From Acutalibacter sp. (lineage in GTDB: Bacteria > Bacillota > Clostridia > Oscillospirales > Acutalibacteraceae), in NCBI GenBank assembly GCA_022511515.1, contig JAFLRP010000200.1:1-51798 (forward strand): a stretch of DNA of 51,798 nt, written 5' to 3'. Positions 4,283 to 33,201 of the stretch are shown here, piece after piece. The notes beneath the pieces are model-generated. The model did not search any database. It saw only the letters and a list, made by a program, of their open reading frames with translations, and was not told where the DNA came from. The translations under genes were made by a program, and so were the position numbers. The stretch's first letter is position 1; the number at the start of each line of letters is the position of its first letter.

Positions 4283-4443
4283 AAAAAACCTCCCAAAATA
4301 TTGTTGTTCTTGAAACTGATACCACATATAAAATCATGATAAATTCCTTCTGCATTCTCGATCACAGAAATGGTATCGCAGTAAAACGATGAATGAACGC
4401 AATCGCGTTTTCTTTTTCACCGGGCAGACGCTCACCGGTCCGG

Positions 4444-5274
4444 TCATAGGCAATGGAATACCGGCTGCATTTTTTCATAGGTGCAAAAGCTCTTAAAACC
4501 AATCTCCTTCAACTGGTCTTTCGCCTCCTGGAGATACGTTCCCAGGTGCGCCGGTGCGTGGCTGTCGCTTCCGATGGTAATGATGCTGCCGCCCAGATCT
4601 TTGTAGAGCCGCAAGATCTCCGGCGATGGCATGGGATCCGTCAGACCGTATCGGTGCCAGGAAGTGTTTACCTCGATCCCCTTGCCGTCAGCGATCACGA
4701 TCTTCAAAATCTCCGCAATGATGGGTTTGAGCTTTTCAAACGGATAGATTCCTTCCTCATCGTACCGTTTCATCAGATCCATGTGGCCCAACACGCTGTA
4801 ATTTTTATAGGCTTTGACCACACCCAGCATTTCCTCATAATATCGCTCGTTATACTCCCGCTGGGTGCGCCCCCGCTGGAAGTCCTGTGTCCAGAACTCC
4901 TTGTCTTCCACTTGGTGGATCGACAGGATGATAAAGTCAAAAGGATATCGCCCAAACAGCGCCTCGTACTGGGGAATGGTGTGGGTCTGCACACCGAACT
5001 CCATTCCCATTTTGATCGCGATCCGGCTTCCATACAAATCCCGCAGCCGTTTGAGGTCCGCCGCCCAGCGGGGATAGTCCACGTTGGCAATCGGTTCTCC
5101 GTGGAAATAACGGATCTCCTCCCCGCTGTCCCAATCCACCTTGACGCCATAATCCACATGGTCGGTAATGCAAATCTCATCCAACCCCAGACGGATGGCG
5201 TTCTTCACGACTTCCTCCATAGGGTAAACGGAATCGTCGCTGTACACCGTATGTACATGATAATCTGCGAACAT
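4444..5274 (-). CDS. PHP-domain phosphatase, histidinol-phosphatase (HisK/HisJ) type
   Basis: The start was placed at the ATG with AAGGAGG seven bases upstream, giving 276 residues, the usual size of the monofunctional PHP histidinol-phosphatase. MFADYHVHTVYSDDS carries the first H-x-H metal motif; ITDHVDYG, LSIHQVED, LGHMDLMKRY and IGSDSHAP supply the other His/Asp ligands of the trinuclear PHP metal site. Histidinol-phosphatase removes phosphate in the penultimate step of histidine synthesis. No other his gene is nearby, however, and it sits upstream of sugar genes, so another phosphoester substrate is possible. The family assignment is firm, the substrate is not. Confidence 0.8.
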   Translation of the reverse strand: MFADYHVHTVYSDDSVYPMEEVVKNAIRLGLDEICITDHVDYGVKVDWDSGEEIRYFHGEPIANVDYPRWAADLKRLRDLYGSRIAIKMGMEFGVQTHTIPQYEALFGRYPFDFIILSIHQVEDKEFWTQDFQRGRTQREYNERYYEEMLGVVKAYKNYSVLGHMDLMKRYDEEGIYPFEKLKPIIAEILKIVIADGKGIEVNTSWHRYGLTDPMPSPEILRLYKDLGGSIITIGSDSHAPAHLGTYLQEAKDQLKEIGFKSFCTYEKMQPVFHCL

Positions 5275-5379
5275 GGCAAAACCTCCTTGTATTCGCTTCC
5301 ATGATGCAGCGCGGCAAAATACTGAATTCCCGACTGTCACGGACAACCGGAGCCGAACTCAGCCTGTGCAGCAGACTGC

Positions 5380-6294
5380 TCACCGGGTGGCTTCCGCAGC
5401 CTTGCCGCCTGTGGTCTCGCGGTACAGCTCCACAATGTCGTGCAGGATGTCGACGCGGGAAAAATCCTTGTTGTATGCCAGACTGATCTCCCGGGTCATG
5501 CTCAAGCTTTCGATGGGCAGGGCCGTCAGTTTGCCCTTGCGAAGCTCGTCCATACAGGCGCTTTGAGGCAGCACCGAAATGCCCATGCCCTTGCGGATCA
5601 AGTCCTTAATGGTAGAAATATTGTCCACCTCGATGGTGATGTTGAAGTTCTCGATGGTTTCGCCGATGCTGGTCAGGGTGGCTTCAAACAGCCGGCGAGT
5701 GGCCGAAGAGGGAAGCCGCAGGATCATGTGCTCGTCCTTGAGCTCCTCCACGCTCACCATAGACCGCTGGGCCAGCCGGTGTTCCGTGTCCAGTACGCAT
5801 ACCAGGGTGTCGGTATCCAGCATCAGATAGTTGAAGCCCGTCCCAGGATGACGGCTCTCCACCACAGCGATGTCGATCTCAAAATTTTCCAGCATTTGAT
5901 AAAGATTTTTAATGGTATCTGTAATAATAGTGATACTTACGTTATCATTCAGACTGCCGTACTTGGCCAGAATTTCCGTGATGGTATTACTCTCCGAGGT
6001 GTGGGTGATCCCCACCCGGATGCGCGTCATATGACGGCCGCGATCGGCGATATCCTGCATCATTTTCCGTTGCATGGCCTTGAGTCTCCGGGCATACCGC
6101 AAGGCGATCTCCCCTTCGGGCGTCAGATCGAACGAACCTTTCCCCCGGTTGAAAAGCCGCGCGCCCAGCTCCTTTTCCAACTGCCCGATGTGATGGCTCA
6201 CCGCCGGTTGGGTGATGTCCAAGATCTCCGCAGCGCGGGTGAAGTTTCTGCACTCTGCCACGGTGAGCAGCGTTTCCAATTTTGCGTCCAGCAT
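5380..6294 (-). CDS. LysR-family transcriptional regulator
   Basis: The 304-residue protein has the standard LysR layout. An N-terminal winged helix-turn-helix (TRAAEILDITQPAVSHHIGQ, about residues 18-37) is followed by a linker helix and a periplasmic-binding-like effector domain starting near RIRVGITHTSE. The effector domain retains the usual GMGISVLPQSA segment near residue 250. AGGAGG lies just before the ATG. It is transcribed away from the antiporter/MgtC genes, and LysR proteins most often control the divergent operon and themselves from the shared intergenic region, so it probably regulates ion or proton homeostasis here. The inducer is unknown. Confidence 0.9.
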   Translation of the reverse strand: MLDAKLETLLTVAECRNFTRAAEILDITQPAVSHHIGQLEKELGARLFNRGKGSFDLTPEGEIALRYARRLKAMQRKMMQDIADRGRHMTRIRVGITHTSESNTITEILAKYGSLNDNVSITIITDTIKNLYQMLENFEIDIAVVESRHPGTGFNYLMLDTDTLVCVLDTEHRLAQRSMVSVEELKDEHMILRLPSSATRRLFEATLTSIGETIENFNITIEVDNISTIKDLIRKGMGISVLPQSACMDELRKGKLTALPIESLSMTREISLAYNKDFSRVDILHDIVELYRETTGGKAAEATR

Positions 6295-6336
6295 AGAGGC
6301 TCCTCCTTATAATGAAACTCTATAGGTAAAGAAAGA

Positions 6337-6376
6337 AATATGATTTGCATTTATTCTGAAAAAATACTATCATATT
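6337..6376 (+). promoter_or_regulatory. Promoter and inverted repeat between LysR and antiporter genes
   Basis: A possible promoter for the antiporter is TTGCAT (6345-6350), 17 bases, TATCAT (6368-6373). It is flanked and overlapped by an 8-bp perfect inverted repeat, AATATGAT (6337-6344) and ATCATATT (6369-6376), with centres 32 bp apart, about three helical turns. This spacing fits binding by a LysR dimer of dimers, but the promoter match is moderate. Confidence 0.4.
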
Positions 6377-6401
6377 CATAAGGATTTTACAAGGGGTTGG
6401 G

Positions 6402-7847
6402 GTGAATCTATTGAATTTCTTTGCGGTCCTTTTCAGCGGGCTCTCCCCTGCAGCGGCGATCATTGTCTCGGTGGCGGCAATGCTGTTGGCAGGCTATTTG
6501 ATGACCCGCCTTACCAAAAAACTCAAGCTGCCTAACGTGACAGGTTACATACTGGCGGGTATCCTCATGGGACCTTACGTGCTGAATGTGGTGCCCGAGT
6601 TTGTGGTACGGGGCTCGGAGTTCCTGCCGGACATCGCGCTGGCCTTTATCGCGTTCAGCGCGGGGCAGTTTTTCCGTCTTGAGACCTTGAAAAAGAACGG
6701 CGCTAAAGTGATGATCATCACTCTGCTGGAATCGCTGGCGGCCAGCCTGCTGGTGTTTGTGTTCACCTTCTGGGTGCTGCGGTTAAATCTGGCCTTCTCG
6801 GTGGTGCTGGCCTCTTTAGCGGCGGCCACGGCCCCGGCCTCTACGCTGATGACCATCCGCCAGACCGGCGCCAAGGGCGACTTCGTGGACACCCTTTTGC
6901 AGGTGGTGGCTCTGGACGACGTGGTGGGTCTGGTGGCCTACAGTGTGGCGATCTCCATTGCGTTGGCTTCCGCCGCGGGACAGGGATTCAGCTTTTCGGG
7001 ACTGATCCTGCCCATTGTGCAGAACCTGCTGGTGATGGCTTTGGGCGGCCTGTTCGGCCTGTTCATGAAGTGGATGAATCAAAACCGCCACTCCACCGAT
7101 AACCGTCTGATCATTGCGGTGGCGCTGCTGTTCTCGTTCTGCGGCATCTGCACCGCAGTGGATATTTCCCCGCTGCTGGGCTGTATGGCCATGGGCATGG
7201 TGTATATCAACCTCACCGAAGACGACAAGCTGTTTAAGCAACTGGGATATTTCAGTCCGCCCATTCTGCTGCTGTTCTTTGTGCGGTCCGGCCTTTCCTT
7301 TGATCTGGGGGCGCTTTTGAGCCCCTCGGGGTCCATCGGTTCAGCGCCGCTGCTGCTGGTGGGCGTGGGGTACTTTGCCGTGCGGCTGATCGGCAAATAT
7401 ATCGGCGCCTTTCTGGGTTGTCTTGCGGTGAAAAAGCCTCCGAAGGTCAGAAACTTCCTGGGGCTGGCCCTGGTGCCTCAGGCAGGGGTGGCCATTGGTC
7501 TGGCGGCCTTGGGCGCCCGCACTCTGGGCGGCGAAATGGGCGAAGCGTTGGAAACCATCATTCTGGCTTCCAGCGTGCTGTATGAGCTCATCGGCCCGGC
7601 CTGCGCCAAGCTTTCCCTGTACCTGTCCGGGTCCTACTCCAACAAGCTGGAAGAAGTGGCCGTGGTGTCGGAAATCACCGAAGACGGCCAGCAGAAAACG
7701 CCTCTGGAATTGCTGGTGGAGCGCATCCATAAAATTCAGGAGGAGATTCCGAACCATGAGATCAGCGAGGAAGAACAGGCCTTTACCGAGGCTGCGGAGG
7801 AGCACTATCACGCAATAGCCGGTCCCAGAATCCGGGCTCGACACTAA
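6402..7847 (+). CDS. Cation/proton antiporter, CPA2 (KefB/NapA-like)
   Basis: The 481-residue protein starts at GTG after AAGGGG. It has about 12-13 hydrophobic segments of the sodium/hydrogen exchanger fold. VVALDDVVGLVAY contains the paired Asp (172-173) that marks the electrogenic CPA2 branch and forms the ion site. The N-terminal VTGYILAGILMGP segment is also typical of KefB/NapA proteins. The last 65 or so residues are a charged cytoplasmic tail, too short for a TrkA-N domain, so nucleotide control through KTN is not expected. It probably exchanges Na+ or K+ for H+. MgtC follows 41 bases later on the same strand, so both likely share a transcript controlled by the divergent LysR. Confidence 0.88.
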   Translation: MNLLNFFAVLFSGLSPAAAIIVSVAAMLLAGYLMTRLTKKLKLPNVTGYILAGILMGPYVLNVVPEFVVRGSEFLPDIALAFIAFSAGQFFRLETLKKNGAKVMIITLLESLAASLLVFVFTFWVLRLNLAFSVVLASLAAATAPASTLMTIRQTGAKGDFVDTLLQVVALDDVVGLVAYSVAISIALASAAGQGFSFSGLILPIVQNLLVMALGGLFGLFMKWMNQNRHSTDNRLIIAVALLFSFCGICTAVDISPLLGCMAMGMVYINLTEDDKLFKQLGYFSPPILLLFFVRSGLSFDLGALLSPSGSIGSAPLLLVGVGYFAVRLIGKYIGAFLGCLAVKKPPKVRNFLGLALVPQAGVAIGLAALGARTLGGEMGEALETIILASSVLYELIGPACAKLSLYLSGSYSNKLEEVAVVSEITEDGQQKTPLELLVERIHKIQEEIPNHEISEEEQAFTEAAEEHYHAIAGPRIRARH

Positions 7848-22896: not shown

Positions 22897-22911
22897 CACA
22901 AAACCTGACAT

Positions 22912-22944
22912 AAAAATGGTGAGGCAATCAGCCTCACCATTTTT
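22912..22944. terminator. Bidirectional terminator between hydrolase and FHA-ABC genes
   Basis: A perfect 14-bp stem AAAAATGGTGAGGC/GCCTCACCATTTTT with loop AATCA has T runs on both strands. It ends both the plus-strand hydrolase transcript and the minus-strand phospho-signalling operon. Confidence 0.92.
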
Positions 22945-22948
22945 GCAT

Positions 22949-25294
22949 TTATGATTTTTCCTTTCCGATAGTCGATAAAACGATTCTGGCAAGGAACAGG
23001 AAAACAACGGTATAAAACAGCAAAATTCCCCATGAGGCCAACAAATGAGAGGAAGTGAACTCAAAGAACGATTCCGCTTCGTGGGGGATCATAACGCCTT
23101 CCTGCTGTAATCTGAGGGTCAGCTCATTCAAGTTTGCCGTGGTGCCGTAGCCCTCCATGCTCCAGCGGCAGACCGCGATCCAGGAAACCATTTCCGTTGC
23201 GCCGCTCAGTTTGAAGATCAAGCCGGAGAACAGGATCTGCGGCATCAGCAGGATCGGCGCCAGAGTCATGGCTCTGTCCGCGTTGGTAAACAGCGACGAG
23301 ACAAACAGTCCCGTTGCGGTGGAAGCGATGGCTGTGATAAAGGTGGTGATCAGCAGCTCCAAAAACGGATGGATCAGAATTCCTTCTTCGGGCAGACCCA
23401 CCATGACGCTGAACACCCCGGTGATCAGCACGCTTTGAATCAGGCACAAAACACCCAGAACGATGATCTTGGAAGATACATAGGCGCTCAAGGACAGACC
23501 TGTCATGTATTCCCGCTTCATGATGGTGCGCTCTTTACAGATCTCCTGAATGGCATTCAGCATGCCGACCCAGAAAGCGGAACAGGATAGGGCAAAGAGC
23601 AGGCTCTTTGTCATCTCGTACTGGTCGAACTGATTGCCGTCCGCAACAAAGGAGATCAGCAGCGCCAGCAGCGGGGCCTGCACTAAGAGCAAAAGAAGCC
23701 GCTGTTTGTCGTTGACTACCAGCTTCAAATACCGTGCGCTCAGGACGCGAAGCTGCTTGAACCGGTTTTTCTTGGCCTTCCCGGAGGCCGCGGCACTTTG
23801 GCGCACTTTTCCGGAAACGGCTCTGGACTGTTCAAACTTCTCGCTCCACTGCTTCGGCTGTTCCGTGATCATGTTGTATACGTCGACAACATCGGAAACG
23901 CCGAAGAAATCGAGGGCGTCGTCGTGAGAGCCGTAGAAGCAGAGATTGCCGCCCTTCCCCATGAATACGATCTTATCGCACATTTTGAGTTGCAGCGTGC
24001 TGTGGGTGACGAGGATCACCGTCTTTCCGCCGTCGGCCATGTTCCGCAGGGATTGCATCAGATTGCGCTCTGTGCCGGGATCCAAACCGGAGGCAGGCTC
24101 GTCCAAGAACAACAAATTCGGATCGGACAAAAGCTCCACGGCAATGCTGGCCCTTTTGCGTTGGCCGCCGCTGAGAGATTTGATCAGACTGTCGCGCTTC
24201 TCCGGCAGCTCCACCATATTGATCGCTCTGGTAATGGCAGCTTCCCGCTCCTCAGGGGTGGTATCCTTCGGAAGACGGAGCTTTGCGGTATACAGCAACA
24301 TATCGTGAAGCGTCAAATTATCGTACACGATATCGGATTGAGGTACATAGCCCACCAGCTTTTTGAGGGAATCAAAATTCTGATACAGATTGACGCCGTT
24401 GATGAACACCTCGCCCAGTGTGGGCTTCAGATAGCCGCACATGCAATTTAGTATGGTGGATTTTCCCGCGCCGGAGCCGCCGATAATGGCGATCAGCTCG
24501 CCCGGTCTGACATTCAGGCTCACATGATTGCTGGTGACAAACGATTTCCTGCCCTTTCCGCGCCGGATCACGATGTCGGATGCGTCCACCGAAATGCCGC
24601 TCTTATAGCAGCAGTAGGAGATCATCGTCGAGGTGAAGATCAGCTTGGAGTTCGTGATGGCGATGACGTCCTTCTCGTGAAGCTTTTCTTTGCCGGAAAC
24701 CCGCTTGTTGTTGACGATGACGCCGTTGGTGCTGCCGCTGTCCACTATGTAGTAGCCGTCCTGTTCCAGAACGATCTTTGCATGGCATTTGGAAACGGAA
24801 ATGTGAGGGAGCGTAATATCGCAGCTTTCCTCCCGGCCGACGGTCAATTCCTGCTGCCCGGCAAGGGCCATCGATTGCCACTTATTGTCCGAATCGTCGG
24901 AGGAAAAGACAAAGAGCACACCTTCGGAAATCGTCTCCACGCCGTCGTCGATGCGGATAAAATCGCCGTCGCTGAGGGAACGGGACGTGATGGAGGTGTT
25001 GTTGTAGATCAGCCCGTTTGTACTGCCGGTCTGTTGATAGACCGCCTTGTCCTCGATGGTCCAATGGCCGTTCCGCAGGCTGAAGCGGCCGTGCTCGTTG
25101 GAGACAAGGGGCGAGGTCAGAACAATGTCATTTGCCGCGCCTCGGCCGAAGGATACGACCCCTTTCCGATAGTCGGCCAATCGGATGGTTTTCGGTTGGG
25201 TATCCCCGTCAAAGATGGTAACAAGCAGATTGCCGGAAATGCCCGTTACAGGTTGAGAATATGGTATTCGTGTTGTTTTATCAAATTCGTCCAT
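22949..25294 (-). CDS. ABC exporter with two N-terminal FHA domains (Rv1747-like)
   Basis: This 781-residue protein joins two FHA domains (about 40-115 and 145-222) to an ABC ATPase (about 240-465) and an ABC2-type membrane domain with about six helices (530-775). FHA1 has GR50-51, SNEHG and GSTNG; FHA2 has GR153-154, S-x-x-H and GSTNG, so both keep the residues that bind phosphothreonine. The ATPase has GGSGAGKST (Walker A), LSGGQRKR (signature) and LLFLDEP (Walker B). As a single-chain half-transporter of the ABCG type it should dimerise. AGGAGG precedes the ATG. It is the last gene after two kinases and a PP2C phosphatase, the same partnership as mycobacterial Rv1747 with PknF. Its cargo is unknown; cell-wall or lipid-linked material is a reasonable guess. 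Confidence 0.92.
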   Translation of the reverse strand: MDEFDKTTRIPYSQPVTGISGNLLVTIFDGDTQPKTIRLADYRKGVVSFGRGAANDIVLTSPLVSNEHGRFSLRNGHWTIEDKAVYQQTGSTNGLIYNNTSITSRSLSDGDFIRIDDGVETISEGVLFVFSSDDSDNKWQSMALAGQQELTVGREESCDITLPHISVSKCHAKIVLEQDGYYIVDSGSTNGVIVNNKRVSGKEKLHEKDVIAITNSKLIFTSTMISYCCYKSGISVDASDIVIRRGKGRKSFVTSNHVSLNVRPGELIAIIGGSGAGKSTILNCMCGYLKPTLGEVFINGVNLYQNFDSLKKLVGYVPQSDIVYDNLTLHDMLLYTAKLRLPKDTTPEEREAAITRAINMVELPEKRDSLIKSLSGGQRKRASIAVELLSDPNLLFLDEPASGLDPGTERNLMQSLRNMADGGKTVILVTHSTLQLKMCDKIVFMGKGGNLCFYGSHDDALDFFGVSDVVDVYNMITEQPKQWSEKFEQSRAVSGKVRQSAAASGKAKKNRFKQLRVLSARYLKLVVNDKQRLLLLLVQAPLLALLISFVADGNQFDQYEMTKSLLFALSCSAFWVGMLNAIQEICKERTIMKREYMTGLSLSAYVSSKIIVLGVLCLIQSVLITGVFSVMVGLPEEGILIHPFLELLITTFITAIASTATGLFVSSLFTNADRAMTLAPILLMPQILFSGLIFKLSGATEMVSWIAVCRWSMEGYGTTANLNELTLRLQQEGVMIPHEAESFFEFTSSHLLASWGILLFYTVVFLFLARIVLSTIGKEKS

Positions 25295-25376
25295 GTGTGT
25301 CCTCCTGTGTGTGCTGAAGCCGGATAGTATAGATCATCAAAGTGAGAGTTATTTCCGCATTTAATCAAAGTTTGCT

Positions 25377-27605
25377 TTAATCGATAAGAATGCGCTCGGC
25401 ATATTCCGAACAGTGGGCAATACTCCCATCTGAATTATAAACGTTGAATCTGATTTCATTGCCCGCCACATCATAGACATACTCATACCAAAAAGAAATG
25501 CTCCCATCTGAATGGTATCCTATCTCTTTTGTTTGATTCTCTGCTGCATCGTATTCATACTCATACCAACTGTTAATACTCCCATCTGAATTGTAAATTG
25601 TCAATTTTACCTGATTTCCTGCCTCATCGTATTCATACTCCATACCGTAATCAATACTCCCGTCGGAATTATACCTTGTCCACTTTATTTTATTTCCCGC
25701 TGCATCATATTCATACTTGTCCCAGTCATCAATGCTCCCGTCGGAATTATACCTTGTCCACTTTATTTCATTTCCCGCTGCATCATATTCATATTCGTGA
25801 CACTGCGAAATGCTCCCATCTGAATTGTAAGTTGTCAATTTTACCTGATTTCCTGCCTCATCGTATTCATACTCCGTACCGTAATCAATACTCCCGTCTG
25901 AATTATATCGTATCGTTCTTTTTTCATTTCCTGCTGCATCGTATTGAGATTCATCCCAGAAATTAATGCTCCCATCTAAATTATAGCTTGTCCACTTTAT
26001 TTCATTTCCCACCGCATCATATTCATACTCGTCCCAATCGCTAATGCCCCCTTCTGAATAGTATATTTCCTTTATTTCATTCCCTACTGAATCATAACCA
26101 TATTGCCTATACTTCGTGCCGTCGGAACGATACCAAGTACGCGTTTCATTCCCTGCGCGGTCATATTCCCGCTCACACCAGCAGTCCAGCGTGTCATCCG
26201 CCAGATAGAATGTGGTTTTTACCGCGTTGCCGGCGGAATCGTACTCGTTTTCCGCATAGAGGCCCACATTCCCGTCCGTGTCATACCAAAAATCCGTCAC
26301 TCGATTTTCCGAATTGTCGAACTCCCTCTTCCAGGAATAGTACAACTGATCATCCGCTGTATACCGTTGTTCACTGACCGCAATCTTACCCAAATACTCT
26401 ATCTTCTTCCAACTCCCGTCTTCCTCCTGCTCTATTTCAAAGGATGGACTCGTTCCACCCAATAATTTTGAAATCCCAAACACTCCGCCGCCTACCAGCA
26501 GTGCAACCACCAGCACCGCCGCGATGATCACCGGAAGCTTTGATTTCTTCTTTCCAAACGTGTTCACTTCTCTCTGCGCCTCGGGCGCTTTGCGGACGGA
26601 AACCGTGCGGTTCGGGTCTTGCGTCTCCGCGGGCCGGCAAATGGGAACGGTTTTGTTCAGGGGGTCCTCCCTGACGGCTTGGGGGCTGCTCCCCACGCTC
26701 ATCAGCGCATTTTTCATAGCCGTAGCCGAAGCAAAACGCATATTGGGATCATAGGCGCAGGCGCAGAGAATCACAGACGCCATGGCGGGGGACGCGTCGC
26801 AGGGGGCGGGAAGGGGTTCGCCGTTCATTCTGCGGCGCAGTGCCGCCGTGCGCTCATTGGGGTTCTTTTGCTGCTGTTCTGTATCCAAAAACGGCAGACG
26901 GTTTTTATTCAGAAGCCGGTAGAGCACCAGCCCCAGAGAATACAGGTCCACCGTGGCGCCGTAATGAGGGCCTCTTTCCACTTCCGGGGCCATGTAGTTA
27001 TAGGTCCCCTTCTGCGAGAGGCCGCCCGTCACGTTTTCCAGCTTCCGCGCGATGCCGAAGTCTCCCAGCTTGTAATAGCCGAACTGATTGACAAAAATGT
27101 TTTCCGGCTTGATGTCCCGGTGGATGACATTGCGCTGCGCGCAGAGCTCCAAGGCCGTGCAGATATCACAGCCCAATTTAATGACTTCCTGTTCCGACAA
27201 CGCCTTATCCCGGATGTAAGTGTTGAACGGCGTCAGCAGTTCCATGCGGATATAGATGTCCCAGCCGATCCCGTCCGCCTTTTCGACCACCTTGTAATCT
27301 TCAATGCTCACGATGTTCGGAACGCCCTTGAAAGAGTCCATGAGCTGAATTTCGCCCACAAATTCATTGACAACGCCCTGGAAATATTCTCTTGTGTCTC
27401 CCTCAGACATTCCCTCAGACCGCAGGGAATCGACCTCCGACTCATTCTGCGGGATGGAGATCACCTTGATCGCGGCGTAGCTTTCCACATTGTTATCTCT
27501 GCGGACAGCCTTGTAAACCGCGCCGAAGGAACCGGTCCCCAGCGGTTTTTCGTCCGCTTCCCATTCCGGCCACGGCCAAGTTTGTTTTACAGTCTCCATT
27601 CCCAT
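25377..27605 (-). CDS. Transmembrane Ser/Thr kinase with RHS/YD-like repeat ectodomain
   Basis: The 742-residue protein has a kinase domain at about 15-305: GTGSFGAVYKA loop, Lys47, HRD with Asp164, DFG 182-184 and TYNYMAPEVE activation-end motif. A basic juxtamembrane segment with T319-VPI and T334-VSV leads to one membrane helix (357-377). The rest (about 424-742) is some twelve tandem 26-residue units of the form YEYDAAGNEIKWTRYNSDGS, like short RHS/YD repeats. I know of no usual kinase sensor of this kind (PASTA, NHL and SH3b are more common). The encoding DNA repeats every 78 bp and is visibly AT-richer than the kinase part. It begins three bases after the phosphatase stop, so the two are coupled. 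Confidence 0.93.
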   Translation of the reverse strand: MGMETVKQTWPWPEWEADEKPLGTGSFGAVYKAVRRDNNVESYAAIKVISIPQNESEVDSLRSEGMSEGDTREYFQGVVNEFVGEIQLMDSFKGVPNIVSIEDYKVVEKADGIGWDIYIRMELLTPFNTYIRDKALSEQEVIKLGCDICTALELCAQRNVIHRDIKPENIFVNQFGYYKLGDFGIARKLENVTGGLSQKGTYNYMAPEVERGPHYGATVDLYSLGLVLYRLLNKNRLPFLDTEQQQKNPNERTAALRRRMNGEPLPAPCDASPAMASVILCACAYDPNMRFASATAMKNALMSVGSSPQAVREDPLNKTVPICRPAETQDPNRTVSVRKAPEAQREVNTFGKKKSKLPVIIAAVLVVALLVGGGVFGISKLLGGTSPSFEIEQEEDGSWKKIEYLGKIAVSEQRYTADDQLYYSWKREFDNSENRVTDFWYDTDGNVGLYAENEYDSAGNAVKTTFYLADDTLDCWCEREYDRAGNETRTWYRSDGTKYRQYGYDSVGNEIKEIYYSEGGISDWDEYEYDAVGNEIKWTSYNLDGSINFWDESQYDAAGNEKRTIRYNSDGSIDYGTEYEYDEAGNQVKLTTYNSDGSISQCHEYEYDAAGNEIKWTRYNSDGSIDDWDKYEYDAAGNKIKWTRYNSDGSIDYGMEYEYDEAGNQVKLTIYNSDGSINSWYEYEYDAAENQTKEIGYHSDGSISFWYEYVYDVAGNEIRFNVYNSDGSIAHCSEYAERILID
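25380..26336 (-). repeat. Tandem 78-bp coding repeats (about 12 copies)
   Basis: Units coding for 26 residues recur in frame. For example, TCGGAATTATACCTTG occurs at 25663 and again at 25741, exactly 78 bp apart. Central copies are nearly identical at the DNA level, while the outermost copies have diverged, as expected if the array grew from the middle. Copy number is likely to vary between strains. Confidence 0.9.
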
Positions 27606-27608
27606 TTT

Positions 27609-28400
27609 TTATCCCTCTTTCTTTTCTGATTGGCGCTTCCGTTTGAAAAACCATCCGGATTCACGCTCGATTTTACATAGAATGATAGTGATATTGTCCC
27701 GGCCTCCGTTGGAGAGAGCTTTCTGAAGCAATTCCGTACAGGCCTTTTCAAGAGACTTTGAAAGAAGCACCTCGGCTATTTCTTCTGTTGTCACCATATC
27801 CGTCAGCCCGTCGGAGCAGATGAGGTAGATATCCCCATCCCGGCACGCGCCCTGCGCCAAATACGGACTGATCGCCATTTCCGTCGGCGGAATGCCCAGA
27901 TTTTGGGAAAGCGGCGGCTTCACGCCAAAGGGAGCCGCTGCAACATGGTCTTCCGAAATCTGTTCCAATTTGCCGGCGCTGAGAAGAAAAATCTTGCTGT
28001 CCCCAATGTTGCAAAGGGTCACGCTGTTGTCTGCAAAGGCAAGCATTGCCGCAGTGGTCCCCATGGAAGAAACTTCATTTTCCCGGGCATACCTGCAAAT
28101 ATCCTCGTTTGCTTTTTGGCAGAACCGCGACAGATCGGACAAAGTATCTTTTCCCAGCTCCAAGGCGGAAGAATCCTTTGCGGCAATGTACGACGCGACT
28201 TCGCCGCATTCCTCTCCGCCCATGCCGTCGAAAACGCCAAACAGAGAAATTTCCTTGGAAGATTTTTCCCCGCATAACGAAGACTTCATGGGTTCGCTGT
28301 TTGTCTCCATGTACTGCCCGTCGCAGATATAATTATCCTGATTGATCTTTCGGACCTTGCCGATATGGCTGATGCATGAATATCGTATGCTGTAATGCAT
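27609..28400 (-). CDS. PP2C-type Ser/Thr protein phosphatase (PrpC/Stp-like)
   Basis: The 263-residue PPM/PP2C phosphatase has the classical metal motifs in order: KINQDNYIC, GVFDGMGGEECGE, SMGTTAAMLAF, NIGDSKIFLL, YLICSDGLTDMV and GGRDNITIILCKIE. The Asp residues of DGMGG, SDGLTD and RDN bind the Mn2+/Mg2+ pair. AAGGAGG precedes the ATG. It lies between the two kinase genes and should dephosphorylate both kinases and the FHA-ABC protein, resetting the system. In the usual firmicute PrkC/PrpC pair one phosphatase serves one kinase; here it serves two. Confidence 0.95.
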   Translation of the reverse strand: MHYSIRYSCISHIGKVRKINQDNYICDGQYMETNSEPMKSSLCGEKSSKEISLFGVFDGMGGEECGEVASYIAAKDSSALELGKDTLSDLSRFCQKANEDICRYARENEVSSMGTTAAMLAFADNSVTLCNIGDSKIFLLSAGKLEQISEDHVAAAPFGVKPPLSQNLGIPPTEMAISPYLAQGACRDGDIYLICSDGLTDMVTTEEIAEVLLSKSLEKACTELLQKALSNGGRDNITIILCKIERESGWFFKRKRQSEKKEG

Positions 28401-28467
28401 ATGTCCCTCCTTTTGTTCAGGCTTTACGATGAGTCACCGAACCTGAAAATCGTGCTCAAAGCCGCTT

Positions 28468-31077
28468 TTAGGGTCTTACACTGGACAGGAACTCCCGCTT
28501 TACATACCCGTAAGTGGTTCCGTATCTCACTCTGGCAAAGATGCTGTCAGCGTTTTCGATGAATTCCACTTCCGTGCCGAGAGCCAGTGTATCAAGAATA
28601 TTATCGCTGCGCTCCTCGGGAGAGCTTCTCAAATATGCGGCAACGGGAACATTTGTGATGTATTGATAGGAAGATCCCGCGCTGTACGGCGGCACAGAGG
28701 ACAGGAATTCCTGCTTCACATAGCCGATTTTACTGCCATATTTCACCTTGGCAAAAATGCTGTTGGCGTTTTCGATGAATCCCACTTCCGTGCCAAGATA
28801 TATGGTATCCAAAATATTATTATCCAGTTCCTCCGGCGTGCTTCTGAGATAGGCGGCGGTCGGAACATTGAAAATATACCGATAAGAGACAACGGTGGTG
28901 TTGGGGGGCGAAGCGGAAAGGAATTCGCGCTTTACATAGCCAAACAGATCGTTGTATTTTACTTTCGCGAAGATACTGTTGGTGTTTTCGATAAAGCCGA
29001 CTTCCGTATTCACTGCCACCGTGCCCAAAATATTGTCTTCCCGCTCCTCCGGAGAGCTTCTCAAATATGCCGAAACCGGAACATTGGTAATATATTGATA
29101 GGAAGCGACCGTTGTGTTCGGCATGACAGAAGACAGAAAAGCTTGTTTGACATAGCCGTACATCCCACTGTATTCCACATACGCAAAGACATCGTCCGCA
29201 TTTTCAATAAATCCCACTTTAGTGCCCAAAAGCAAGGTGCTCAGGATATTGTCGCTGCCCTCTTCCGGCGTGCTGTAAAGCTCAACGGAATCCGGTACAT
29301 TATCCACATATTTGAGAGAAACCACTGTGGTATTCGCCGGAGGATCATCGGTTGATCCCTCCAGGCCGTCATCAAAAGATGACCCGAATAAACCGTACTG
29401 TCCCTCCTCCAGATACTCCGTATAGTCGTCGAAGATCCATCTCCTATCCTTCTTTTCCCCGTACAGGACATACGTGTTTTCCGTACTGCCCTCTTTCCAG
29501 TGAACTGTCAAAAAGCAGGTGTTGGCCTCCGCCATGTCGATTTGATAGTCGGGCTCAAACAACGTCAAGTCAACGCTGGGTGCGGAAGACAGCGGAAGAA
29601 GCAGGGGATCGTCCTCTTTTGAGACCCCCAGCCGAAGCATACAGCTTGCCACATAGCGGTCAGAGAAAAAAGTGCCCAGCAATTCAGCCATTGTCTCTCC
29701 GTTATGTACATGCATTTGAGTGACCGTATCAATCTGGTCGATCGCGGTCTGCGCTGTGCCGGTTCGGCCGTCTATCCAGCTTCGGTATACCGTGTAAGCA
29801 TCCAGGAAATCGGAAATGACCTCTTGCTCGCTGTCTGAATACGCCCCAATCAGCTCATCTTCTGATTCTTCCGGCTGGCTGGAGATCGCTGAGCTCTCAT
29901 CGCCGAGGCTCCCGTCATGGTCTTTGCCATTGGAAAAATACCAGAACGCAAAGAGCCCGCCCAGAATCAGCACAGCGAGAAGCACCGCTGAAAGGATCAG
30001 CGGGGTCTTGGACTTCTTTGCCCCGAAAGTATTCACAGGGGACGCCGGCTGCTGCGTCTCGGGCGCTTTCCGAACGGAAACCGTCGCGTCAAGATCCTGC
30101 TGTTTCTGCGGACGGCGCACTGCCGTTGTTTTTTCCAATTCCTCTTTGGGGTTGTAAATGCCGCCGGAAACGTTCATCAGGGCATGTTTCATTGCCGTTG
30201 CCGAGGCAAATCGCCTGGTCGGATCCGGCTCACAGGCGCAGAGAATGACTGCCGCCATATCCGGAGACGCGTTGCAGGGCGGCGGCAGCGGCTCACCGTC
30301 CAGTCTCCGGCGATTGGCAGCTTCCCGCTCGCTGGGGCTGAGCAGTTGTTTTTCCGTCTCGATAAACGGAAGACGGTTATTGTTCATAAGGCGGTACAGG
30401 ACAACTCCCAGAGAATACAGATCGACGGTGTCATCGTATTCCAAACCCTTCTCAATTTCCGGGGCCATATAGCTATACGTTCCTTTTTGAGAAAGCCCGC
30501 TCGTAATATTCTCCAGTTTCCGGGCAATTCCGAAATCGCCCAATTTGAAATCGCCGAACTGATTGATAAAGATGTTTTCCGGCTTGATGTCCCGATGGAT
30601 CACATTCCGTTTCTTACACAGCTCTAGGGCTGTGCATATGTCAATACCCAGCTTCATGATCTCTTTTTCCGACAGCATTTTATCGTAAGAATACGTGGTA
30701 AACGGAGTCAGCAATTCCATACGGATATAGATGTCCCAGCCGATCTCACCCTCCTTTTCAACCACCTTATAGTCTTCCACGCTCACAATGTTCTGAACGC
30801 CTTTAAAAGACTCCATGAGCTGAATTTCACTGACAAAATCACTCACTACGCCCTGCAGATAGGCCTTTGTTTCATCCAAAGATAATCCTTCAAACCGCAG
30901 GGATTCGATCTCAGATTCATTTTGAGGGATGGAGATAACCTTAATTGCCGCCGTGCTTTCCACTTCGTGGTCTTTCCGAAAAGCCTTATATACGACACCG
31001 TATGACCCCTGTCCGATGGGCTTGCTTTCTACCTGCCACTCCGGCCATACTTTTCCCAAAAAATCAATCGCTGCCAT
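28468..31077 (-). CDS. Transmembrane Ser/Thr kinase with four SH3-like repeats
   Basis: The start is placed at ATG 31077, after GAAAGAGG, giving 869 residues; a longer frame to 31110 lacks a site. The kinase domain (about 10-300) has GQGSYGVVYKA, HRD with Asp163, GDFGIA and TYSYMAPEIE. The juxtamembrane part carries T317-TAV and T332-VSV and is followed by a helix (about 358-382). Outside, a roughly 190-residue domain comes before four SH3b-like repeats of about 72 residues (582-869), each ending GYVKREFLS or similar. SH3b repeats often bind peptidoglycan or its peptides. The kinase and juxtamembrane parts closely resemble the other kinase, showing duplication with replacement of the sensor. 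It is the first gene of the operon. Confidence 0.94.
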   Translation of the reverse strand: MAAIDFLGKVWPEWQVESKPIGQGSYGVVYKAFRKDHEVESTAAIKVISIPQNESEIESLRFEGLSLDETKAYLQGVVSDFVSEIQLMESFKGVQNIVSVEDYKVVEKEGEIGWDIYIRMELLTPFTTYSYDKMLSEKEIMKLGIDICTALELCKKRNVIHRDIKPENIFINQFGDFKLGDFGIARKLENITSGLSQKGTYSYMAPEIEKGLEYDDTVDLYSLGVVLYRLMNNNRLPFIETEKQLLSPSEREAANRRRLDGEPLPPPCNASPDMAAVILCACEPDPTRRFASATAMKHALMNVSGGIYNPKEELEKTTAVRRPQKQQDLDATVSVRKAPETQQPASPVNTFGAKKSKTPLILSAVLLAVLILGGLFAFWYFSNGKDHDGSLGDESSAISSQPEESEDELIGAYSDSEQEVISDFLDAYTVYRSWIDGRTGTAQTAIDQIDTVTQMHVHNGETMAELLGTFFSDRYVASCMLRLGVSKEDDPLLLPLSSAPSVDLTLFEPDYQIDMAEANTCFLTVHWKEGSTENTYVLYGEKKDRRWIFDDYTEYLEEGQYGLFGSSFDDGLEGSTDDPPANTTVVSLKYVDNVPDSVELYSTPEEGSDNILSTLLLGTKVGFIENADDVFAYVEYSGMYGYVKQAFLSSVMPNTTVASYQYITNVPVSAYLRSSPEEREDNILGTVAVNTEVGFIENTNSIFAKVKYNDLFGYVKREFLSASPPNTTVVSYRYIFNVPTAAYLRSTPEELDNNILDTIYLGTEVGFIENANSIFAKVKYGSKIGYVKQEFLSSVPPYSAGSSYQYITNVPVAAYLRSSPEERSDNILDTLALGTEVEFIENADSIFARVRYGTTYGYVKREFLSSVRP
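28471..29334 (-). repeat. Four tandem 72-residue SH3-like coding repeats
   Basis: Each unit reads approximately as NTTVxSYxYIxNVPxxAYL, then RSxPEE, NIL, GTEVGFIEN, IFAKVKY and GYVKxEFLS. The first unit (DNVPDSVELYSTPEEG) is the most diverged and the last three are very similar, again suggesting duplication of the outer domain. Confidence 0.85.
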
Positions 31078-31123: not shown

Positions 31124-31152
31124 ATTGTATTCCTTTGCCTAAACAATAGCAA
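31124..31152 (-). promoter_or_regulatory. Promoter of the kinase-phosphatase-exporter operon
   Basis: On the minus strand: TTGCTA (31152-31147), 17 bases, TACAAT (31129-31124), about 46 bases before the kinase ATG. It is divergent from and well separated from the GntR promoter. Confidence 0.6.
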
Positions 31153-31293
31153 GACAGATTTCCCCAAAAAATGCAAAACAGATTTCACCGATTACACCGC
31201 AGCATCGACGATCCCTGCCAAAGGCGGGTCATTGTCGGCAAAGGGAAGTCCGATTGCAGCCGCCTTTTCTCTTTTAGAACGATACAGACCCTA

Positions 31294-31322
31294 TTGACAT
31301 TTCCGTTTATACTGTATATAAT
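31294..31322 (+). promoter_or_regulatory. Consensus sigma-A promoter of the GntR-ABC operon
   Basis: TTGACA (31294-31299), a 17-base spacer, and TATAAT (31317-31322) match both consensus hexamers exactly. The leader before the GTG start is only about 25 bases long. Confidence 0.9.
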
Positions 31323-31345
31323 AAGCATATACAGTATAAACGGAA
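31301..31345. promoter_or_regulatory. 19-bp perfect inverted repeat, likely GntR operator
   Basis: TTCCGTTTATACTGTATAT (31301-31319) and its exact complement (31327-31345) flank a 7-base spacer. The repeat covers the promoter spacer, the -10 hexamer, the transcription start and most of the leader. This is where a dimeric YtrA-type repressor would block its own promoter. Confidence 0.85.
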
Positions 31346-31353
31346 GTGACAGC

Positions 31354-31731
31354 GTGAATATTTTAATTGACAACAAAAGCGGGGCTCCGATCTACGATCA
31401 GATCTATGCCCAAATCAAAAGCCAGATCATCAGCGGCGTATTGCAGGAAGATGAAATGCTGCCGTCCATTCGGGGACTCGCCAAGGACCTTCGCATCAGC
31501 TTTATTACCACCAAGCGGGCCTATGAGGAGCTGGAGAAGGACGGCTTTCTCTACACGCTTCCCGGCAAGGGCTGTTATGTGGCTCCGAAAAATGTAGAGC
31601 TGCTGCGGGAAGAATATCTGAAGGAAATTGAGGGGCATATGGAGGAGATCGCCCGGCTTGCTGTTTGCTGCAATTTGAGCAAGCAGGATATCATAGAAAT
31701 GATCACTTTCAGTCTGGAGGAACAAGAATGA
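31354..31731 (+). CDS. GntR-family transcriptional repressor, YtrA subfamily
   Basis: Starting at GTG 31354, after GGAAGTG, the protein has 125 residues, the typical size of YtrA regulators. A longer frame from 31171 would extend back through the promoter and operator and is rejected. The winged helix-turn-helix spans about 10-75 (PIYDQIYAQIKSQIISGVL, then LPSIRGLAKDLRISFITTKR), followed by a short dimerisation tail. YtrA proteins repress adjacent ABC transporter genes and release on cell-envelope stress or certain peptides. The stop overlaps the ATPase start (ATGA). Confidence 0.93.
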   Translation: MNILIDNKSGAPIYDQIYAQIKSQIISGVLQEDEMLPSIRGLAKDLRISFITTKRAYEELEKDGFLYTLPGKGCYVAPKNVELLREEYLKEIEGHMEEIARLAVCCNLSKQDIIEMITFSLEEQE

Positions 31732-32570
31732 ACGCACTGGAACTAAAGAACCTGTCGAAAACATATCCCGGATTTCTGTTGGATCATTTGAATTTGACAC
31801 TGCCAAGTGGGTGTATCATGGGGCTGATCGGGGAGAACGGCGCCGGGAAAAGCACTACGATCAAGCTTGTTCTCGATATGATTCACAAGGACAGCGGGAC
31901 GATCACAATACTCGGCAAAGACAATGAGGACAGCATCCATCTGACCAAAGAGGAGATCGGCGTTGTGATGGACGAGGTGGGTATTCCCGATTGCCTAACC
32001 GTAAAGCAGGTCGGAAAAGTGATGAAGAATACGTTCCGCTGCTGGGACAACGACGAGTATTCCCGTTTGACAGCGAAACTCCGGCTGCCGGACAAAAAGC
32101 CGTTCAAGGAGTTCTCCCGCGGTATGAAGATGAAACTGGGCATTGCCATTGCCATGTCCCACAACAGTAAGCTGCTGCTGCTCGACGAAGCCACCTCCGG
32201 GCTTGATCCGGTGGTCCGGGACGAGGTGATCGAAATGCTTCTCGATTTTACCCGGGATGAAGATCACTCCATTCTCATTTCCTCACATATTGTCAGCGAT
32301 CTTGAAAAACTCTGCGACTATGTGGCATTTCTGCATGAAGGGAAATTGCTGCTCTGCGAAGAGAAAGATCAGTTGCTTTCCGAATACGGCTTGATCCACT
32401 GCACTGCCGAGGAACTGCAAACTCTTCCGCCACAGGCAGTCCGATACAAAAAGGAAAATCCCTATGGCATAGAAGCCATGGTGCAGAAAAGCGCTATGCC
32501 GCGGGGAGCAAAGATCAGTCCCATCAGCATAGAGGAACTCTTCTTATTCATGGTAAAGGAGGCCGGATGA
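31728..32570 (+). CDS. ABC transporter ATPase (YtrB-like)
   Basis: The start is at ATG 31728, overlapping the repressor stop and preceded by GGAGG; it gives 280 residues. GLIGENGAGKSTTIK is Walker A, FSRGMKMKLGIAIAM the signature region (SRGMK in place of SGGQ, common in this subgroup), and LLLLDEATSGLDP Walker B. The last 70 residues resemble the C-terminal extension of YtrB-type ATPases. With the permease it forms a two-gene exporter under GntR control. Confidence 0.92.
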   Translation: MNALELKNLSKTYPGFLLDHLNLTLPSGCIMGLIGENGAGKSTTIKLVLDMIHKDSGTITILGKDNEDSIHLTKEEIGVVMDEVGIPDCLTVKQVGKVMKNTFRCWDNDEYSRLTAKLRLPDKKPFKEFSRGMKMKLGIAIAMSHNSKLLLLDEATSGLDPVVRDEVIEMLLDFTRDEDHSILISSHIVSDLEKLCDYVAFLHEGKLLLCEEKDQLLSEYGLIHCTAEELQTLPPQAVRYKKENPYGIEAMVQKSAMPRGAKISPISIEELFLFMVKEAG

Positions 32571-32571
32571 A

Positions 32572-33201
32572 ATGAAAGGTCTGCTCTTAAAAGACTGGTA
32601 TATGGTGAAGAAATATTGCAAAGTCTACCTTGTAATCGCCGCCTTTTTCATTGCCGCGTCCTTTGCAAGCGACGACAATCTGTTCTTTGTGTTTTACCCC
32701 TGCCTGCTCTGCGGCATGATCCCGGTGAACCTGCTGGGCTACGATGAACGCAGCAGATGGGTCCAGTACAGCGGCACGCTGCCGTATACAAAGGCCCAGT
32801 TCGTGTCCGCCAAGTATTTGGTCGGTTTGCTCGCCCAGGCCGCCATGCTGCTGGTTACAGGTATTGCCCAGGGAATCAAAATGAGCGTAAACGGCAATTT
32901 TGTATCTCATGATTTTCTCATGCTCATGCTGCTGCTTCTGACTGTCGCCACGGTCACCTCTTCCATTTCCCTGCCGTTTATTTTCAAGTTGGGCGTGGAA
33001 AAAGGGCGGATCGCCTACTATGCCATGGTGGGCTTTATCTGCGCGGCAAGCGCCGCGTCCGCCCTTGTGTTCAAAGGGCAGCAGCAGGCGGCGCTGCAGC
33101 AAAATGTCCTTCTCGCCGTATCGGCCCTTGCGGCCATCGGCATTTATCTCCTTTCCTGGTATTTGTCCATCGTCTTTTACAAAAATCGGGAAATAACGTG
33201 A
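32572..33201 (+). CDS. ABC-2 family transporter permease
   Basis: The 209-residue protein begins one base after the ATPase stop and starts MKGLLLKDWYMVKKY, the typical opening of this ABC-2 permease group. About six hydrophobic segments follow. GYDERSRWVQYSGTLPYTKAQFVSAKY is the conserved cytoplasmic loop seen next to YtrB-type ATPases. Antimicrobial-peptide or lipid-II-related stress is the known theme of such GntR-ABC sets, but the substrate is unknown. Confidence 0.88.
   Translation: MKGLLLKDWYMVKKYCKVYLVIAAFFIAASFASDDNLFFVFYPCLLCGMIPVNLLGYDERSRWVQYSGTLPYTKAQFVSAKYLVGLLAQAAMLLVTGIAQGIKMSVNGNFVSHDFLMLMLLLLTVATVTSSISLPFIFKLGVEKGRIAYYAMVGFICAASAASALVFKGQQQAALQQNVLLAVSALAAIGIYLLSWYLSIVFYKNREIT

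Follow-up and report, generated by a model that had tools for sequence, protein, structure and literature searches.

The 51,798-nucleotide stretch of Acutalibacter DNA analysed here, called the window, carries four minus-strand genes, for two membrane sensor kinases (K1 and K2), a PP2C phosphatase, and an FHA-FHA-ABC exporter. We give even chances to the reading that they form an exporter gated by phosphothreonine and fed by two sensors, in which the juxtamembrane linkers of the kinases would dock the exporter FHA domains, the N-terminal tail of the exporter would be switched, and the phosphatase would reset both. Switching of the pump becomes testable because the kinases and the pump share a threonine motif that resembles a docking signal. 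Judged from its sequence, the operon is an informative, ordinary-looking variant of the Rv1747/PknF kind, and what is new in it is that kinases and exporter have a threonine motif in common and that the sensors were swapped.

K1 (28468..31077, minus strand, 869 aa) comprises a kinase domain at 30178-31026, then a juxtamembrane linker, a membrane helix, a region without assignment, and SH3 repeats. The phosphatase (27609..28400, minus strand, 263 aa) is identified by its open reading frame and Pfam (PP2C, 1.5e-15). K2 (25377..27605, minus strand, 742 aa) has a kinase domain at 26709-27551, followed by a linker, a membrane helix, and a repeat ectodomain; the Pkinase matches of K1 and K2 are 2.3e-42 and 2e-42. 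The exporter (22949..25294, minus strand, 781 aa) contains, in this order and in a single chain, two FHA domains (two FHA stretches, 9.5e-33), an ABC ATPase (ABC_tran, 1e-30), and an ABC2 membrane domain (ABC2_membrane, 9e-22). All four open reading frames are intact, and the intergenic gaps are 67, 3, and 82 bases, so the gene row that an earlier note on this DNA had described is borne out by the coordinates and by Pfam. The terminator that the note placed at 22912-22944 is found as a 15-pair hairpin at 22911..22945 (no strand given), which lies between the exporter gene and a convergent esterase gene and closes the row; the fold of 22898-22960 has a z-score of -5.34, and none of 200 shuffles is equally good. 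The promoter that it placed at 31124-31152 stands as a sequence, TTGCTA-17-TACAAT on the minus strand, but the evidence for it is weak because the site matches only 9 of 12 consensus positions and promoter-like sites in the region are at chance level (10 found, 9.6 expected). It was dropped as statistical evidence. The four genes presumably share one transcript.

The flanks were traced for signs that the operon might be an inserted island. At E up to 1e-60, the esterase gene on one side is matched in 7 of the 29 genomes from the genus, and at E up to 1e-80 a flanking ABC ATPase gene is matched in 10 of 29. These two genome sets overlap only in the window's own genome, and no empty insertion site can therefore be read. 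A divergent cassette at 31171-33201 (plus strand) encodes a short GntR regulator, an ABC ATPase, and an ABC2_membrane_5 protein, and we take it to resemble a YtrA-type envelope-stress cassette. Its promoter, TTGACA-17-TATAAT at 31294-31322, matches 12 of 12 positions and overlaps the palindrome TTTATACTGTATAT...ATATACAGTATAAA. Elsewhere in the genome, the Pkinase family is found above the cut-off only once more, in a PASTA kinase on contig C127, and apart from the exporter the FHA family turns up in one protein only. This protein (L007, G000:C156) fuses an FHA domain to a multi-helix membrane protein that is FtsW/RodA-like by eye. A zinc-ribbon, weakly kinase-like protein (L004, G000:C163) reaches 30.8 bits for Pkinase, below the cut-off, and its C-terminal part is PASTA-like by eye.

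FHA domain 1 (24950..25156) and FHA domain 2 (24656..24844), both on the minus strand, match the FHA profile. Both retain the phosphothreonine-binding residues G-R, S, H, and N-G in alignments, as the earlier note had stated. The second domain also matches solved structures, with Rv1747 (6cah) as the best match and GarA next, among others; the matches include the phosphorylated Rv1827 (GarA) structure 2kfu. The Rv1747 match, together with the seven recurring loci described below, supports the note's comparison with the Rv1747/PknF circuit. Like that system, the window has two FHA domains, an ABC ATPase, and an ABC2-type membrane domain in one chain, and its exporter gene shares an operon with a Hanks-type kinase gene (here two, by presumed co-transcription). 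It differs by its two kinases and PP2C gene, its other ectodomains, and its clostridial host. In Mycobacterium tuberculosis, the PstP gene lies outside the pknF operon, and the phosphorylated sites of Rv1747 lie in the linker between its FHA domains. FHA-dependent phosphorylation of Rv1747 and a role in envelope export are described in PMC3908365 and PMC9312465, and the disordered nature of the linker in PMC9312465. The window exporter lacks a long FHA1-FHA2 linker of this type when compared with two mycobacterial homologues (GR-to-GR distance of 103 residues, against 244 and 220) and has a threonine motif in its N-tail instead.

Residues 11-359 of K1 and 12-358 of K2 are 69% identical over about 350 residues in BLASTP, which finds nothing significant between the two proteins beyond residues 359 and 358; the similarity thus stops immediately ahead of the membrane helix. 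A tree of 57 kinase domains places the two as sisters (support 98/87), with a kinase of Candidatus Scybalocola (L042) nearest to the pair. Alignment and tree show that K1 and K2 stem from duplication of one kinase, with the kinase domain and juxtamembrane linker kept and the predicted ectodomains different. The outer part of K1 (28483..29250, minus strand, outer limits approximate) has four SH3_3 stretches (5.2e-20), whereas that of K2 (25377..26450, minus strand) consists of DUF2963/RHS-like repeats (DUF2963, 7.4e-31; RHS_repeat, 1e-9). Matches to the K1 outer part occur in 15 of 300 family genomes including its own, and the others cover only the SH3 part (query residues 200 and up). The K1 region between the helix and the SH3 repeats has no match in Pfam (E up to 2) or among solved structures. 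The K2-type ectodomain is also present on kinases from other genera (L185, 8e-24; L188, 3e-42; L189, 2e-44). Three tandem subfamily kinases are seen in each of L192, L197, and L200, with a PP2C gene in L192, a further sign of kinase duplication.

The PASTA kinases (PknB/StkP/PrkC) and their Stp1/PstP-type phosphatases also pair a membrane Hanks kinase with a PP2C partner. However, Pfam detects no PASTA domain in K1 or K2, the PASTA kinase on C127 is a separate protein, and the linker motif described below is absent from 30 of 30 PASTA kinases. The nearest NCBIfam models are the PASTA kinase model NF033483 for K1 and K2 (scores of 133.5 and 122.7, where the cut-off is 450) and the Stp1 model NF033484 for the phosphatase (151.6 bits, against 230), which is recognised by its PP2C fold itself.

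The juxtamembrane linker of K1 (30001..30162, minus strand) contains the threonine motifs LEKTTAVRRP and LDATVSVRKAP, and that of K2 (26532..26693, minus strand) contains LNKTVPICRP and PNRTVSVRKAP; both sets of coordinates are derived from the protein. Besides LDATVSVRK and NRTVSVRK in the window, linker sites include EQTVRVRR in L042 and DGTVSVF, EKTVSIF, and DKTISPF in others. The linker was defined as the stretch between the kinase domain and the helix, and 51 of the 59 kinases collected (57 of them in the tree) have a usable one. The pattern T[VIST].[VIPL][FR], which was written after these 51 linkers had been inspected, occurs in 18 of them, against a shuffled mean of 1.0 (0 of 500 shuffles as high). 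Its serine version is found in 1 of 51 linkers (1.1 expected), and the motif itself in 3 of 51 when the first 300 ectodomain residues serve as a control (3.3 expected). Among kinases less than 65% identical, 8 of 30 linkers have the motif (0.53 expected) and none of the 30 has the serine form.

The enrichment is also seen outside the pattern-making set. Of 35 new kinases, 8 were dropped as having no clear linker or helix; 5 of the remaining 27 carry the motif (0.65 expected, 0 of 1000 shuffles as high), and none carries the serine form. A first small further set, whose linkers are contained in the later 35 kinases, gave 2 of 10, with 0.26 expected and 28 of 1000 shuffles at least that high. 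Same-family PASTA kinases had the motif in 0 of 30 linkers, with 0.48 expected by chance; this control drew 30 loci from 92 matching genomes. The linker of the kinase in G782, a genus relative, was fetched after the pattern was fixed and reads DKTTAVRKAP. The strict motif is missing from 33 of the 51 linkers, including those of the FHA-ABC loci L028, L036, and L068. A looser acid-x-T pattern is strong in the first set (29 of 51 linkers, 13.7 expected) but does not stand out among the further kinases (13 of 27, with 9.3 expected; serine form 15 of 27, with 10.8 expected), which led to its rejection as a general rule.

These counts indicate that a linker threonine motif like the ETTSVF site of GarA is enriched in this kinase subfamily. 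In the GarA system, the autophosphorylation sites of PknG are described as recruiting and anchoring the GarA FHA domain, and the phosphorylated substrate motif ETTS lies in the N-terminal part of GarA, in the peptide SDEVTVETTSVFRADFL (PMC8546545). The window resembles GarA/OdhI and PknG in the linker motif and in the match of FHA domain 2 to GarA. It differs in that all partners of the GarA/OdhI and PknG systems are soluble proteins, GarA and OdhI being regulators of metabolism, whereas the partners here are a transporter and membrane sensor kinases.

The N-tail of the exporter (25217..25294, minus strand) has DKTT at residues 5-8. Six of seven exporter orthologues with at least 60% identity have [DE][KR]T at residues 5-7, which none of 20000 shuffles reaches; the exception is L027 of G243, which has no adjacent kinase. 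Across FHA-ABC loci, 7 of the 8 N-tails that have a linked subfamily kinase contain [DE].T, as do 3 of the 26 that lack one (Fisher, 1.6e-4); the rows are related to each other, 5 of the 7 linked-kinase positives being close orthologues. This comparison entered 34 of 53 FHA-ABC loci (L038, L050-L056, L058-L067, and L303 were left out) and set the N-tail limits by a rule of thumb. The motif-positive N-tails of L036 (DDKTVSFF) and L294 (SEQTQFSERTQF) belong to exporters only 39-45% identical to that of the window. The counter-cases are L068, with a linked kinase and no motif, and L043, which has the motif but whose kinases are all distant and on the opposite strand.

In the proposed mechanism, the ectodomain of either kinase would sense its envelope signal, and the kinase would then autophosphorylate its linker threonines. 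An exporter FHA domain would dock on the phosphorylated linker, and the docked kinase would phosphorylate the DKTT of the N-tail. The phosphothreonine of the N-tail would bind an FHA domain, either within its own exporter or in a neighbour, and thereby alter activity or clustering, and PP2C would reset both the kinase linker and the N-tail. By analogy with the known systems, the linker is likely to be the dock and the N-tail the switch. As has been suggested for Rv1747, the exporter probably carries a component of the cell envelope. We infer that both kinases act on the exporter; if either suffices, the exporter would compute an OR of two envelope signals, and this logic is a guess.

A rival account holds that only Rv1747-style clustering takes place, with the exporter phosphorylated at scattered threonines, FHA binding between exporters that leads to membrane clusters, and linker motifs that are mere autophosphorylation sites. 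It accords with the condensation of the Rv1747 N-terminal module on phosphorylation by PknF and its reversal by PstP (PMC9312465), and with the StkP juxtamembrane threonines that are phosphorylated and act in division (PMC12077195). The lack of a long FHA1-FHA2 linker and the occurrence of the N-tail motif together with a linked kinase argue against it, and it is given a distinctly lower chance than the docking mechanism. A little less probable again is a division of targets, in which K2, whose gene adjoins that of the exporter, would serve the exporter, and K1 would have gained another target after duplication and share only the phosphatase. The fully different ectodomains would suit this, as would the presence of subfamily kinases beside other FHA proteins, including the FHA-FtsK ATPases of L181, L193, L214, and L219. 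Yet both linker motifs are kept in K1 as well as or better than in K2, and the FHA-membrane protein on C156 is the genome's only FHA protein besides the exporter.

The patchy distribution of the exporter counts against the docking mechanism with two inputs. Including the window's own genome, matches at E up to 1e-40 occur in 14 of the 300 genomes from the family and in 2 of the 29 from the genus, and matches at E up to 1e-80 in 11 of 391 class genomes. The other genus member, G782, has on one contig a PP2C gene, one kinase gene (TPR, NPCBM), and the exporter gene, in this order, and this kinase is the only K2-domain match of its genome at E up to 1e-20. The search that the earlier note proposed, for FHA-ABC genes beside kinase and PP2C genes, was run, and the same-strand set recurs in seven other loci (L221, L042, L028, L030, L036, L068, and L041), with zinc-ribbon genes between its members in L028. 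This shows the predicted PP2C and FHA-FHA-ABC half-transporter to be members of one gene set that recurs. Among 15 FHA-ABC loci from the family-genome search, a kinase lies within 5 kb on the same strand in 9, and 5 have a kinase and PP2C; among the 27 loci L042-L068, such a same-strand kinase is present in 7, and in 8 more the kinase is on the other strand. These counts come from single-sequence phmmer matches, which distant kinases or PP2Cs may escape. That the genes are chance neighbours or loosely co-transported envelope genes, with an exporter that works without kinases, is rejected as very improbable because the set recurs across genera, and both FHA domains keep their binding residues, although some FHA-ABC genes have no nearby kinase (e.g. 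L027, L034, L044, and L046).

As for the genes being scattered in close relatives, which the note had named as counter-evidence, they stand together in G782; but 27 of 29 genus genomes are without the exporter, and no kinase adjoins the exporter in G243 (L027), where subfamily kinases and a PP2C gene lie about 11 kb off. The two-input version that the note proposed fits the anatomy of the operon, but two kinases of this subfamily at an FHA-ABC gene are seen only in the window among the loci examined. As G782 has one kinase, the second input seems to have arisen by duplication in this particular lineage. Uniqueness of multiple kinases beside an FHA-ABC gene was rejected, as L048, L054, L057, and L059 have several more distant same-strand kinases near one such gene.

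The sensor domains vary between loci. The ectodomains of linked kinases are NPCBM (L028, L221), F5/8-type (L030), PASTA (L036), DUF6273 (L041), and RCC1 repeats (L068), and none was assigned to the linked kinase of L042. In L030, a gene of the D-Ala-D-Ala dipeptidase family (PF01427, 1.8e-34) lies between the kinase and exporter genes. An envelope signal is guessed because several of these kinase and neighbour domains point to the cell wall. In L036, the tail of the PASTA-domain kinase (4348-7682) and the next gene are L,D-transpeptidase-like by eye; a YkuD domain in that next gene, an extra lipoprotein, was rejected (Pfam E of 0.0027, below the cut-off). Runs of small zinc-ribbon membrane proteins stand beside the exporter in L028, L221, and L027 and are absent from the window operon.

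Subfamily kinases also adjoin FHA-FtsK ATPases, with a PP2C in L181, L214, and L219 and alone in L193. A single type of kinase thus seems to work with two sorts of FHA export machine. By gene content, these loci recall the T7SSc-j variants, in which a kinase occurs with a PPM phosphatase and FHA components; for T7SSe, PMC11217815 describes a kinase, a phosphatase, and FHA components. The machine in the window differs in being an ABC exporter, and Pfam finds no FtsK domain among ten window proteins, the four genes and the neighbours scanned. A search of open-licence papers found no description of a clostridial kinase-PP2C-FHA-ABC operon or of this linker motif. A broader proposal, offered tentatively and with less confidence than the mechanism for the window, is that a clostridial sensor-kinase subfamily uses a linker phosphothreonine docking code (TVxV[F/R]) to plug interchangeable sensors into FHA export machines, ABC here and FHA-FtsK elsewhere. 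Kinase duplication and an ectodomain swap at the membrane boundary would then give a new input with the wiring unchanged.

If true, the operon would be a compact and harmless model for Rv1747-type exporters, with two sensors, an eraser, and an exporter together, and a short motif would explain how a kinase finds its FHA exporter. The bacterium would have added a second signal to one pump through a kinase copy and a swap of its outer part.
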